A DNA stretch of 64,000 nucleotides, taken from the NCBI RefSeq assembly GCF_016592435.1, contig NZ_AP014545.1, positions 682,001 through 746,000 on the forward strand, in the 5' to 3' direction. Source of the stretch: Amphritea japonica ATCC BAA-1530. Its GTDB lineage: Bacteria; Pseudomonadota; Gammaproteobacteria; Pseudomonadales; Balneatricaceae. Position 1 is the stretch's first letter; every line of letters starts with the position of its first letter. The notes under the pieces are model-generated. The model was not told the DNA's origin. It saw only the letters and a program-made list of their open reading frames with translations, and searched no databases. Made by a program: the position numbers and the translations under genes. Below are positions 20,495 to 25,039 of this stretch, in pieces.

Positions 20495-22414
20495 TTGCTT
20501 CAGAAGTTGCTTGATTCTAAGCGTAAGCTTAAAAAAACCATATTTGTCGCATTGGATCTGGTTCTATTACCGATATGTTGCTGGCTCAGTTATGCGCTAC
20601 GTTATGGTGATTGGACTGCTAATAACTTTGCTCATTGGCCGGCATATATCCTTGCTCCTATTATCTTTATTCCTATTTTTATTAGGATGGGAATGTATAG
20701 GGCGGTTATACGATACATAGGTTATCGTGCGCTTTGGACTGTTGTAAAGGCGGTTACGCTATCCTTATTAATTTGGGCTGTAGTCACTTACTTGCTAGGG
20801 CTCGAGTATAATACCCCACGCTCAGTTATTTTGATTTTCTGGATAGTCTCTGTGTTAGTCATCGGTGGTAGTCGTATGGTTGCGCGATGGCTTATTTTGC
20901 ATCAATTCCCTGGTGGTGAAGGTAACGCTAAGCTCTCTACTGAGCGTGTGCTTATTTATGGTGCTGGCTCTGCAGGTCGACAGCTGGCAACAGCGCTTTA
21001 TCATTCCAACGAGTTTTCTGCTATTGCGTTTATAGACGATGACAGCTCTCTTTCAGGAATGGATATTAACGGCGTTCGAATTTATAAGTCTGTAGATATT
21101 TCCTCATTAGTCGAACGCTTTGATATTGATTCTGTTTTGTTGGCGATCCCTTCTGCTTCCAGGCGTCGACGGAAAGAAGTTATAGATTCGCTTAATGAGC
21201 TCCATATAAGAGCTCTGACCCTCCCAGCCTTATCTGATATTGCGGGTGGTAAGATAAGTATGACAGATGTGCGTGAGGTTGATATTGCCGATCTGCTTGG
21301 GCGTGAGGAGGTTCTGCCCGATAAAACATTACTTGATGCCTGTATTCGGGGTCAGGTTGTTTTAGTCACGGGAGCTGGAGGGTCTATCGGTTCTGAGCTC
21401 TGTCGCCAAATTATCAAGCAAAAGCCTAGATGCATAGTTCTGTTTGATCAGTCTGAGTTTGGCCTTTATGGAATTGAGCGGGAGATGACTAAGCTTAGTG
21501 GGGCTGATATTTGCGTTGTTCCAGTGCTCGGATCTGTGCTTGATTCTTCTCATCTGATCAAGGTTATGCAGCAGTATGAAATTGATACGGTGTACCATGC
21601 GGCTGCATATAAGCACGTTCCTCTCGTTGAGAGTAACATGATTGCAGGCATCCGAAACAACCTGTTTGGTACCTGGCATACGGCAGAAGCCGCAATACAC
21701 TGTAAGGTTAAAAACTTTGTTCTAATTTCGACTGACAAAGCGGTACGTCCAACCAATGTCATGGGTGCAAGTAAGCGCTTTTCTGAGCTAGTTCTGCAAG
21801 CATTAAGTAAACGTGAACAGGAAAGCGATATTCGCTTCGCGATGGTCCGTTTTGGCAATGTATTGGGTTCTTCGGGCTCTGTGATTCCGCTTTTTCGTCA
21901 GCAGATAAGTGAAGGGGGGCCTATTACCGTTACAGATCCGGAGATTACCCGTTATTTTATGACAATACCTGAAGCCTCCTCTCTTGTCATTCAAGCGGGC
22001 TCAATGGGGTGTTCTGGTGATGTGTTTGTACTGGATATGGGTGAGCCCGTTAAAATAAAGAACCTTGCCAAGCAGATGATTAACCTGACAGGCCTGTCAG
22101 TGCGTGATGCCAATAATGCTGATGGCGATATTGAGATTATCTACACAGGTTTACGAGATGGTGAGAAGCTCTTTGAAGAGTTGCTTATAGGTGACAATGT
22201 TCAGGAAACTGATCATCCTATGATTATGCGGGCTGAGGAAGTTATGGTGGAGTGGGATGAGTTAAGGGTTGTCATTGAAAGAATGGAGCTTGCTCTCGAT
22301 AGTTTCGATCATGAGGAAGTTAGGCAGTTGTTACTCGGTACTGTTAATGGCTATAACCCTCAGCACGAGATTAAAGATCCTATGTTTACTCAAACCATAC
22401 CTTCCATTAATTAG
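20495..22414 (+). CDS. UDP-GlcNAc 4,6-dehydratase, WbpM/FlaA1-like membrane protein
   Basis: The 639-residue protein has four N-terminal membrane segments, a first Rossmann domain (VLIYGAGSAGRQLATAL) and a C-terminal catalytic SDR domain (VLVTGAGGSIGSELCRQI). The usual Tyr of the active site is replaced by Met in STDKAVRPTNVMGASK, which is the known Ser-Met-Lys arrangement of WbpM relatives. It makes UDP-4-keto-6-deoxy-GlcNAc, feeding the SDR upstream. The start is TTG with GGGG about 7 bp upstream. It is the last gene of the locus, as in many pseudomonad O-antigen clusters. Confidence 0.92.
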   Translation: MLQKLLDSKRKLKKTIFVALDLVLLPICCWLSYALRYGDWTANNFAHWPAYILAPIIFIPIFIRMGMYRAVIRYIGYRALWTVVKAVTLSLLIWAVVTYLLGLEYNTPRSVILIFWIVSVLVIGGSRMVARWLILHQFPGGEGNAKLSTERVLIYGAGSAGRQLATALYHSNEFSAIAFIDDDSSLSGMDINGVRIYKSVDISSLVERFDIDSVLLAIPSASRRRRKEVIDSLNELHIRALTLPALSDIAGGKISMTDVREVDIADLLGREEVLPDKTLLDACIRGQVVLVTGAGGSIGSELCRQIIKQKPRCIVLFDQSEFGLYGIEREMTKLSGADICVVPVLGSVLDSSHLIKVMQQYEIDTVYHAAAYKHVPLVESNMIAGIRNNLFGTWHTAEAAIHCKVKNFVLISTDKAVRPTNVMGASKRFSELVLQALSKREQESDIRFAMVRFGNVLGSSGSVIPLFRQQISEGGPITVTDPEITRYFMTIPEASSLVIQAGSMGCSGDVFVLDMGEPVKIKNLAKQMINLTGLSVRDANNADGDIEIIYTGLRDGEKLFEELLIGDNVQETDHPMIMRAEEVMVEWDELRVVIERMELALDSFDHEEVRQLLLGTVNGYNPQHEIKDPMFTQTIPSIN

Positions 22415-22551
22415 ATATTAATACCTCTGTTTATTTCCTATAAGCAGAGCTGCGGCAGGTCTGCCTCGCATAGTGAGTTATGTGTTTAGTCTTTCATAGC
22501 AAAAGGGTGATGCGCCTTGCAGGCTTTGAGCTTACGGTTGTCCACGCTATA
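22415..22551. other. Intergenic region between the WbpM-type gene and the tRNA-tail array
   Basis: These 137 bp separate the last polysaccharide gene from the repeat array, which faces it. I find no open frame and no convincing terminator with a T-run. Confidence 0.4.
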
Positions 22552-22993
22552 AGAGAGCTGAGTCGTGCTATTTCTGGTGATGATCTGGAAAGGAAATGGT
22601 GCCTCTTTCAGGACTTGAGTCTGAGACCTATCTATTCCTATTAGAGAGCTGAGTCGTGCTATTTCTGGTGATGATCTGGAAAAGAAATGGTGCCTCTTTC
22701 AGGACTTGAGTCTGAGACCTATCTATTCCTATTAGAGAGCTGAGTCGTGCTATTTCTGGTGATGATCTGGAAAGGAAAGGGTGCCTCTTTCAGGACTTGA
22801 GTCTGAGGCCTATCTATTCCTATTAGAGAGCTGAGTCGTGCTATTTCTGGTGATGATCTGGAAAGGAAGTGGTGCTTCTTTCAGGGCTTGAGCCTGAGAC
22901 CTATCTATCCCTATTAGAGAGCTGAGTCGTGCTATTTCTGGTGATGATCTGGAAAGGAAATGGTGCCTCTTTCAGGACTTGAACCTGAGACCT
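22552..22993 (-). repeat. 91-bp tandem array carrying repeated tRNA 3' ends
   Basis: Four 91-bp units start at 22552, 22643, 22734 and 22825, and a fifth copy of the first 78 bp (22916-22993) runs into the intact tRNA gene. Read on the minus strand, each unit holds 13 bp of spacer, 33 bp equal to the tRNA variable loop, T-arm, 3' acceptor strand and CCA, and 45 bp of tRNA 3' flank. The copies differ by few bases. The fourth unit (22825-22915) has changes on both sides of the T-stem. The array lies downstream of the tRNA in its direction of transcription. Confidence 0.93.
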
Positions 22994-23037
22994 ACCGATT
23001 ATGAGTCGGGTGCTCTAACCAACTGAGCTAAAGAGGC
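22961..23037 (-). tRNA. tRNA with CAT anticodon, probably tRNA-Ile2 (or elongator tRNA-Met)
   Basis: The 77-nt gene folds completely. It has a 7-bp acceptor stem, a D-arm with AGTTGGTTA loop, the anticodon loop CTCATAA (anticodon CAT), a 5-nt variable loop, a T-arm with loop TTCAAGT, and an encoded CCA at 22961-22963. The anticodon arm (CGACTCATAATCG core with a mismatch at the base of the stem) is closer to E. coli tRNA-Ile2 than to elongator tRNA-Met. E. coli also has an Ile2 gene (ileX) near rpoD. If it is Ile2, the C34 must be modified to lysidine by TilS. Confidence 0.9.
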
Positions 23038-23163: not shown

Positions 23164-23193
23164 CGCCCATAATACCACAGGATATTATGGGCG
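23164..23193 (-). terminator. Inverted repeat downstream of rpoD, possible terminator
   Basis: A perfect 10-bp stem (arms 23164-23173 and 23184-23193, core GCCCATAAT/ATTATGGGC) with a 10-nt loop lies about 22 bp after the rpoD stop. No T-run follows directly, so it may be a weak or Rho-assisted terminator or an mRNA 3' stabilising hairpin. Confidence 0.45.
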
Positions 23194-23215
23194 CAACGGT
23201 CTGATTTAAAAGATT

Positions 23216-25039
23216 TTAATGTTCGTCAAGGAAGCTGCGCAGATGGTCTGAGCGACTTGGGTGACGTAGCTTGCGAAGAGCTTTGGCTTCGATCTGCCGA
23301 ATACGCTCACGGGTAACATCAAACTGTTTACCAACCTCTTCCAAAGTGTGGTCAGTGTTCATGTTGATACCAAAACGCATGCGCAGTACTTTGGCTTCAC
23401 GGGCTGTCAGACCGGCCAGAACTTCTTTGGTTGCTTCCTGAAGGCCTTCGCCGGTGGCGGAGTCTACCGGGGAGCTGATGGTTACGTCTTCGATAAAGTC
23501 ACCCAGACTGGAATCTTCATCGTCTCCGATGGGGGTTTCCATAGAGATCGGCTCTTTAGCAATCTTCAGTACCTTACGAATCTTATCTTCAGGCATGTCC
23601 ATGCGCTCTGCCAGCTCTTCCGGAGAAGGCTCGCGGCCCATTTCCTGAAGCATTTGGCGAGAGATCCGGTTTAGCTTATTGATCGTTTCGATCATGTGAA
23701 CCGGAATACGTATGGTGCGTGCCTGGTCGGCAATGGAGCGTGTAATTGCCTGACGAATCCACCAGGTTGCATAGGTTGAGAATTTGTAACCACGGCGGTA
23801 TTCAAACTTATCAACCGCTTTCATCAAGCCGATGTTGCCTTCCTGAATAAGATCCAGGAATTGCAGGCCTCGGTTGGTGTATTTTTTAGCGATAGATATA
23901 ACCAGACGCAGGTTGGCCTCAACCATCTCTTTCTTCGCGCGCCGGGCACGAGCTTCGCCAATCGACATGCGACGGTTGACTTCTTTTATTTCGTTCAGGG
24001 TCAGGTGAATATCTTGTTCTGCCTGAACCAGTTTTTTCTGTGCTCTGCGGAGTTCTATTTCGTGACGCTTAAGAGGGCGTGCATATTCGGAATCAGAGTT
24101 GATCAGACCATCCAGCCATTCGCTGTTAGTCTCGTTGCCCGGGAATTCTTTAATGAACTGGCGACGCGGCATTTTTGCACGTTGAGTACAGATCTGCATG
24201 ATCATCCGCTCTTGCTTACGGATGTTCTCAATGGAGCTCCGGACATTGGTCACCAGCATATCGTAGTAGCGGGGTGCCAGTTTGATCGGTGAAAATGCTT
24301 CTGCAAGCTCTTCGAAAGCCTTGGCTGCGGTTTTACTACCGCGACCGTCTTTCTCAACAGCTTTTAGATAGGTTTTGTAGGTGCTGCGGATTAGTCCGTA
24401 GCGACGCTTGGCTTCCTCTGGGTCAGGCCCGCGTTCTTTCTCTTCTTCTTCATCGTCGTCATTACCGGCATTAGCGGCTGCTGCTTCTGCCTGTTGAGCT
24501 GCAGATGGTATCTCTGTGCCGTCATCCGGGTCGATATAGCCGCTGAAGATATCGCTCAGACGGCCTTCTTCTTCGACGGTTACATCGTAGGCTGTCAGAA
24601 TAGCTTCTACGGAGCCTGGGAATGCGGCCAATCCGGCCATTACTTCACGCAGACCTTCTTCGATACGCTTGGCGATTTCGATTTCGCCCTGGCGCGTCAG
24701 TAGTTCTACCGTACCCATTTCCCGCATGTACATGCGCACAGGATCTGTTGTGCGACCCGCATCAGATTCAACTGCTGCCAGTGCGGCAACAGCTTCTTCG
24801 TCAGCTTCTACTTCTGCTGAATCGCCTTCTGTCATCAGCAGGGTTTCTGCATCAGGGGCAACTTCAGTAACGGATATGCCCATATCGTTGATCATACGGA
24901 TGATGTCTTCGACTTGATCCGGATCGGCGATATCTTGTGGCAGATGGTCATTAACTTCAGCATAAGTAAGGTAGCCTTGCTCCTTACCTCGTGCGATCAG
25001 TTCCTTGAGGCGTGACTGCTGCTGTGAGGTATCTGACAT
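23216..25039 (-). CDS. rpoD: RNA polymerase primary sigma factor RpoD (sigma70)
   Basis: RpoD directs RNA polymerase to housekeeping promoters. The 607-residue protein has region 1.1 at the N-terminus, an acidic non-conserved region (around the DDDEEEEKE run), region 2 ([20 protein letters not shown], then [20 protein letters not shown]), region 3 and region 4.2 with [20 protein letters not shown]. The ATG is preceded by GAAGGG. It is the last gene of the rpsU-yqeY-dnaG-rpoD group and also has its own promoter-like sequence. Confidence 0.98.

Follow-up and report, generated by a model that had tools for sequence, protein, structure and literature searches.

Why should a tRNA gene be followed by a row of copies of its own 3′ end, and can such copies still do anything that a tRNA does? 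The question is raised by a locus beside rpoD in Amphritea japonica, lying within the 64,000-nucleotide stretch of the chromosome that was analysed as a whole (the window). Tail repeats of this kind are best described at tyrT. A sequence-only reading of the locus had noticed a tandem array behind a tRNA with a CAT anticodon and proposed that its units, if transcribed, could act as decoys by mimicking the T arm and the CCA end, or yield small RNAs.

The array is real. Tandem Repeats Finder (TRF) reports a single array at 22547–22994 (period 91, 4.9 copies, 95% matches, score 819), and a second repeat search places the copies exactly 91 nt apart. Four full 91-nt units follow the tRNA on the minus strand, at 22597–22960 and all in the same orientation, as had been stated, and after them comes a decayed fifth (Table 1). 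The repeated block had been described as the 33-nt tRNA tail with its flank; the tail does recur, but the block that is repeated comprises the whole 91 nt, and each unit also contains a further piece of the tRNA, AGCACGACTCA, together with an insert by which the anticodon loop is disrupted. Chance is an inadequate explanation, since the scores of tRNA tails against their own downstream regions lie far above those of comparisons with other loci in the genome, and since related species, assembled independently, have units behind this tRNA as well. The order on the minus strand is dnaG, rpoD, and tRNA-Ile2, and transcription reading through beyond the array would enter the convergent gene in antisense. 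A promoter scan reported no promoter-like site for tRNA-Ile2; the segment TTGCGC-N16-TATTAT at 23169–23196 may be read as a candidate promoter of its own.

Table 1. Features of the tRNA-Ile2 array and its neighbours in the window.
Feature	Position	Strand	Remarks
tRNA-Ile2 (assigned by sequence)	22961..23037	-	anticodon CAU; ileX homologue; ARAGORN label tRNA-Met
Unit 1	22870..22960	-	91 nt; terminal CCA; base 54 is C
Unit 1, spacer	22934..22960	-	27 nt; little conservation across species
Unit 1, anticodon-arm 5′ side	22923..22933	-	AGCACGACTCA; recurs 91, 182, and 273 nt further
Unit 1, insert	22904..22922	-	GCTCTCTAATAGGGATAGA; splits the anticodon loop; position shared by all units
Unit 2	22779..22869	-	terminal CCC; A53–C61 mismatch; base 54 is C
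Unit 3	22688..22778	-	terminal CCA; A53–C61 mismatch; base 54 is C
Unit 4	22597..22687	-	terminal CCA; A53–C61 mismatch; base 54 is C
Fifth unit, decayed	22508..22596	-	tail relic at about 22508–22536
rpoD	23216..25039	-	upstream neighbour
Convergent gene	20495..22414	+	nucleotide-sugar enzyme-like; best NCBIfam model PseB, under the model cut-off

By its sequence, the CAT tRNA is tRNA-Ile2(CAU), not tRNA-Met. Compared with E. coli genes, it is identical at 62 positions to ileX, at 56 to metT, and at 43 to metZ; the genome, a single contig, was found to have six CAT tRNAs, and no other among them is of the tRNA-Ile2 type. Its genomic place is also that of ileX, because dnaG and rpoD adjoin both here and in E. 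coli, where the order is dnaG-rpoD-mug-ileX with mug lying between rpoD and ileX.

The anatomy of the units became clear when 55 of them from 16 genomes were aligned (one 224-nt stretch of genome G013 was skipped). Each is a 5′-truncated pseudo-tRNA with a broken anticodon loop, without a 5′ acceptor strand and with little left of the D arm, and composed, in order, of a variable spacer, the anticodon arm's 5′ side (mostly CGACTCA), an insert, the variable region, the T arm, the 3′ acceptor strand, and CCA. The insert starts with (N)CTCT in most units and interrupts both the loop and the stem of the anticodon arm. The intact loop string GACTCATAA is present in none of the 55 units from the 16 genomes. 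No functional tRNA was found in the array, ARAGORN giving just one gene in the window. Conservation is unevenly distributed along the unit: between species of group A, the spacer reaches an identity of 0.42, the CGACTCA core 0.89, the insert 0.74, and the tail 0.81; in the same order, the values are 0.30, 0.86, 0.51, and 0.74 within group B and 0.17, 0.68, 0.45, and 0.71 between Amphritea and the other genera. Groups A and B are set by likeness of the units, and G008 belongs to B though the rpoD tree puts it beside G000, a member of A. A hairpin within the insert was considered as a conserved element, given that CTCT and AGAG are able to pair in several species; it is not claimed, since the pairing is broken in G000, G013, G005, and many of the initiator tRNA-Met (fMet) units described below, and no compensating changes were seen by eye.

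The array is a regular companion of this tRNA within the genus. Of 116 genomes of the family, 84 gave a match to the tRNA-Ile2 pattern, as did 13 of 17 in Amphritea (G001, G009, G011, and G012 gave none and stand outside the 13), and at least one unit follows the gene in 12 of these 13, with a TRF array in 11. G014 has decayed units only, and in G010 an integrase element takes the place of the array behind tRNA-Ile2. Arrays are borne by genomes that match A. balenae, A. atlantica, A. opalescens, and A. sp. 1_MG-2023, and by A. pacifica, where the array is cut by the contig end, and copy number ranges from about 2 to 10 across genomes. Outside the genus, arrays of the same plan occur in two genomes of genus g8 (G046 and G048) and in Microbulbifer sp. 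HZ11. In an rpoD tree of 74 rows, built without G010, G016, and Microbulbifer, the 12 Amphritea rows, every one of which has units, form a single clade with 100/100 support, and G046 and G048 are placed away from it. Searching relatives for the same unit had been suggested earlier, and, far from being absent from all of them, it was found.

With a strict unit pattern, 19 stretches were matched in a collection of genome contigs: five in Amphritea, one in a g8 metagenome-assembled genome (MAG), one in Microbulbifer, two on near-identical MAG contigs carrying a single unit, and ten read as chance, among which a Microvirga stretch with a tRNA-like tail was counted. The same pattern matched in one of 390 genomes of the order; such counts are low because the pattern misses even the window's own array, where the T loops are changed. 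A pattern made for the fMet units matched in one of 369 genomes of the class, namely the window's own. The two near-identical contigs come from a Cellvibrionaceae MAG and an Aestuariirhabdus MAG; they are nearly the same in sequence at the single unit-like stretch, and neither has a tRNA gene in the 8 kb covered. Three genomes of genus g5 (G027, G030, and G031) have another array behind tRNA-Ile2, with a period of 124 or 242 bp, in which the tRNA is represented by no more than about its final 13 nt; it is apparently of independent origin. Searches of open-licence papers brought up no description of the Ile2 array.

Sequence change in the units lags behind that of the tRNA they accompany. The T stem varies between species, and units mostly bear the version of the tRNA that they accompany. 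Older or foreign versions persist nevertheless: the tail relic of the fifth unit in the window scores 30 and 26 against GGGCCTT-type Ile2 tails of sister species (G004 and G008, respectively) and 20 against its own tRNA, and unit 2 of G046 has a different T stem, yet a fully paired one. Since units of older or other tail types persist, the tRNA has probably been exchanged or converted during the life of the array. Within species, tails differ by 0.091 on average and spacers by 0.215 (means taken without the composite arrays of G008 and G046), and such a low difference between tails is expected from constraint and from conversion alike. In G014, the interval between rpoD and tRNA-Ile2 holds a hybrid of a GGGCCTT-type 5′ half and an array insert, upstream of a tRNA of the GCCTCTT type; its arrangement suggests that the tRNA was replaced after the array arose.

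Are the repeated tails, then, maintained as tRNA mimics? Each unit had been said to keep a T-arm hairpin and a CCA. In the window, CCA ends three of the four units, which bears out that part of the statement for all but unit 2; the hairpin is compromised by the A53–C61 mismatch in units 2–4 and by C54 in all four. Across the genomes, after setting aside four truncated last units, the T stem is fully paired in 28 of 51 units, the T loop is canonical in 25, and the terminal CCA is present in 34; scoring used a fixed register from the 3′ end, which underrates the few units that contain indels. Among 47 changed T-stem pairs in these units, 30 are broken and 17 still pair. Counted by position (50 units, G046 unit 2 also being dropped), 91 species-level events were found, the most changed position being 54 with 10 events in 8 species, followed by position 49 with 7. 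T54 is lost in 18 of the 50 units, and a uniform model, in which relatedness is ignored, gives p = 0.013 for the excess at this position; the loss would fit, weakly, a disarming of the units. Nor do the units fold more stably than shuffled sequences, with z-scores of +1.02 and +0.97 for two Ile2 units of the window, +1.98 for one fMet unit, and −0.18 for one Leu unit. The decay of T54, the T stem, and CCA, together with these folds, counts against tRNA-like decoys, and the T-arm decoy proposed earlier was dropped as the main reading for that decay.

The Ile2 locus does not stand alone. For 13 of the 71 tRNAs in the genome, at 10 loci, a repeat of the tRNA's own tail lies no more than 500 nt downstream (score of at least 30), against a background of 18 in 4728 comparisons of a tail with another locus. 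These are Tyr (181-bp period), initiator Met at two loci (137 bp), Leu(CAA) (155 bp), Lys (two genes pointing to one repeat), Phe (two loci), Val(GAC), Asp (three genes of one cluster), and Ile2 itself with its 91-bp unit. The covariance model of the RtT RNA scores 66 bits at tRNA-Lys and 53 at tRNA-Tyr; tRNA-Val(GAC), with 42.6, falls just below the cut-off of 45 bits, and no match was listed at the Ile2 array (E up to 10 in one scan and up to 1 in a second) or at fMet, Leu, Phe, and Asp. The comparison with tyrT and its rtT RNA drawn in the sequence-only reading was thus apt, the same genome having an RtT-like array at Tyr, an RtT match at Lys, and tail repeats elsewhere. In one Tyr, one Lys, and one E. 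coli RtT unit, the tail closes a long helix (z of −1.78, −1.81, and −2.05), which is absent from both window Ile2 units folded.

A likeness to the Ile2 units is found at the initiator tRNA-Met. In 15 genomes of the genus, 71 fMet rows are broken at the same point of the anticodon loop; at least one looks like a chance match (G014, GGGCTG...), and the rows give no independent count of exceptions, because contexts with an intact loop were skipped, which removed real tRNAs. Comparing the Ile2 insert of this genome with its fMet insert gives 12 matching positions out of 19 in fixed register (p about 0.0008; 0.007 by local alignment); the Leu insert is not significantly similar to either (p from 0.32 to 0.99). 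Ile2, fMet, and Leu units are broken at the anticodon loop, and in Tyr-type units the break lies, by eye, at the T loop. Several other structures deserve mention. In genome G003, 13.3 copies of a 141-bp pseudo-tRNA unit follow an initiator tRNA-Met (positions 529–2396 of the stretch C1:469500–473500). A tRNA cluster of G000 (C1:2167300–2171600) has an 83-bp, 2.6-copy repeat that resembles tRNA-Asp, is altered in the anticodon region, and lacks CCA. In G014 (C59:37500–52500), tRNA-Leu(CAA) is separated from a displaced array unit by a type I restriction-modification set (HsdM, HsdS, and HsdR by Pfam) with a DUF6538 protein.

It is tempting to see in all this a genome-wide set of transcribed, deliberately disabled tRNA copies that bacteria of the genus maintain and that would form a new class of tRNA-derived repeat RNA. 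Its members would be the tandem fMet and Ile2 pseudo-tRNAs, with one kind of insert shared at the same anticodon-loop position, the Leu units interrupted at the matching place, and the RtT-type Tyr, Lys, and Val repeats, and the functional part would be the insert, not the T arm. We consider such a class unlikely. The loci provide a natural series for asking whether the repeats serve the end of transcription, act as a source of small RNA, or merely persist, and the recurrent interruption of the loop gives a testable hint that selection keeps the dead copies of tRNA inactive.

What the loci may have in common is the end of a transcript. The tyrT repeats constitute a region of Rho-dependent termination. 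At all eight of the other array loci inspected, an intrinsic terminator is present, its T run starting 27–38 nt past the tRNA, and it recurs downstream. The Asp locus, which is outside these eight, has no terminator within 150 nt after the last tRNA, so the division into loci with a terminator and loci with a Rho-type region is not neat. Behind tRNA-Ile2, no intrinsic terminator was found within 200 nt in 14 of the 16 array genomes, and the trailer is richer in C than in G (mean skew 0.27); in the window's genome, this skew ranks 7th of 31 terminal tRNAs, and for 15 of these 31 a terminator lies within 150 nt. Such a trailer does not require the array, since relatives without one show the same: 54 of 63 genomes lack a terminator, with a skew of 0.24 (p = 0.19 for the difference), in a set from which G010, G075, G062b, G027, G030, G031, and loci with less than 200 nt downstream were left out. 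The spacing of C residues that is typical of rut-like sites does not consistently exceed that of shuffles in Ile2 trailers.

The anticodon loop at which the units are broken is also a place where mobile elements enter. In G010 (C7:142700–148008) and G075 (C17:142500–148500), an element of about 3.4 kb encodes a tyrosine integrase (PF00589) and two small genes, for which Pfam gives no match in the G010 copy. At its ends lie a tRNA-Ile2 5′ half, ...CATAAT|TT, and a complete tRNA-Ile2 in the opposite orientation. Four other genomes (G043, G055, G060, and G065) have a tRNA-Ile2 5′ half some 30–40 nt before the complete gene, as if elements that split the tRNA brought a full replacement with them. 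A phage origin of the unit was also considered and rejected: the strict pattern matches three stretches of viral contigs, none of which is an array by eye over about 160 nt. At least 120 viral stretches match the 5′ pattern of a tRNA, and the 120 read over about 85 nt look by eye like complete tRNA genes, with a single exception (L226).

Taken together, the units look like repeats of a transcript-end region unable to act as tRNA, not like working decoys, and the account that we prefer is an RtT-like tandem amplification of a disabled tRNA-Ile2 with its trailer, which would lengthen a C-rich termination region, possibly of the Rho type. The units would be transcribed as the 3′ trailer of tRNA-Ile2, each repeating the C-rich, G-poor stretch whose counterpart at other tRNAs is the intrinsic terminator, and the array would thereby extend the zone where transcription stops ahead of the convergent gene. 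Recombination between the tRNA and the units would keep the tails alike, and selection would hold the units incapable of acting as tRNAs. The simplest account common to the loci would then be that each array repeats the region in which its tRNA transcript ends, the copies being separated by disabled remnants of the tRNA; at Ile2, that region would be of the Rho type. We give the preferred account a probability of just under one half (about 0.48), because of the similar trailer in array-less relatives and the rut-like spacing that does not consistently exceed shuffles. For the same reasons, its main rival, a neutral by-product, is a real if doubtful possibility: one duplication of the tRNA 3′ end would have been amplified by unequal crossing-over, its tails being kept similar by tRNA-to-unit conversion, with no function at all. 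The variable copy number, the decayed remains in G014, the erosion of the T arm and CCA, the trailer shared with array-less genomes, and the different arrays at the same tRNA in g5 are what such a process would leave. It accounts less well for the presence of units in 12 of the 13 genus genomes that have tRNA-Ile2, for a loop interrupted in 55 of 55 units, for the greater likeness of insert and core than of spacer, and for ten tail-repeat loci in one genome.

Two further explanations appear improbable. Processed units might bind tRNA-processing or tRNA-binding factors, as decoys or small RNAs, for which the resemblance of the unit tails and CCA to tRNA ends speaks; the losses in T stem, T54, and CCA, folds no better than shuffles in Ile2, fMet, and Leu units, and the missing RtT match at Ile2 all tell against it. 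No better placed is the view that the units are integration scars, i.e., eroded attachment sites of elements whose recombination site is the tRNA-Ile2 anticodon loop. The integrase elements of G010 and G075, the 5′ halves ending in ...CATAAT beside a complete tRNA, and the position of the break in the Ile2, fMet, and Leu units are in its favour, but the element junctions come after ...CATAAT and the units diverge after GACTCA, tRNA sequence flanks the insert on both sides, the units are near-identical tandem copies, and the three viral matches do not look like arrays over the roughly 160 nt read.

Among known systems, the tRNA fragments left at island attachment sites resemble the units in being 3′ portions of a tRNA that lie downstream of a tRNA gene. 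A repeat of this type is provided by a 57-nt tRNA-Leu copy in G007, attachment-site-like and about 35 kb away, which is uninterrupted and distant, whereas the Ile2 units are interrupted and head-to-tail, and no integrase lies within the window's array. In Bacillus cereus, tRNA-Other is a tRNA-like gene without a function in translation (PMC3399842); it is described there as a predicted pseudo-tRNA beside an island, with effects of its deletion, and not as a tandem array of truncated copies. In Salmonella Paratyphi A, an rtT variable-number tandem repeat differs by a 175-bp length change between two strains (PMC2658671); it is of the RtT type and belongs to a tRNA other than Ile2, the change in repeat length being the point of likeness. 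An increase of RtT at 10 degrees has been reported for a Thioalkalivibrio (PMC8092127). The nearest relative is RtT RNA itself (RF00391; rttR at E. coli tyrT-tyrV), whose tandem units, like those of the Ile2 array, lie on the same strand after a tRNA and bear its 3′ end with CCA. The two differ in period (178 bp in E. coli, 91 bp here), in the covariance match, which the Ile2 array lacks at the 45-bit cut-off, in the site of the break (the anticodon loop in Ile2, not the T loop), in the fold, the two Ile2 units folded showing no helix closed between the tail and upstream sequence, and in the terminator, which the Ile2 array does not have in each unit. The best reading of the kinship is that the Ile2 array and the tyrT repeats are of the same broad kind, the former being one of about ten tail-repeat loci in its genome.
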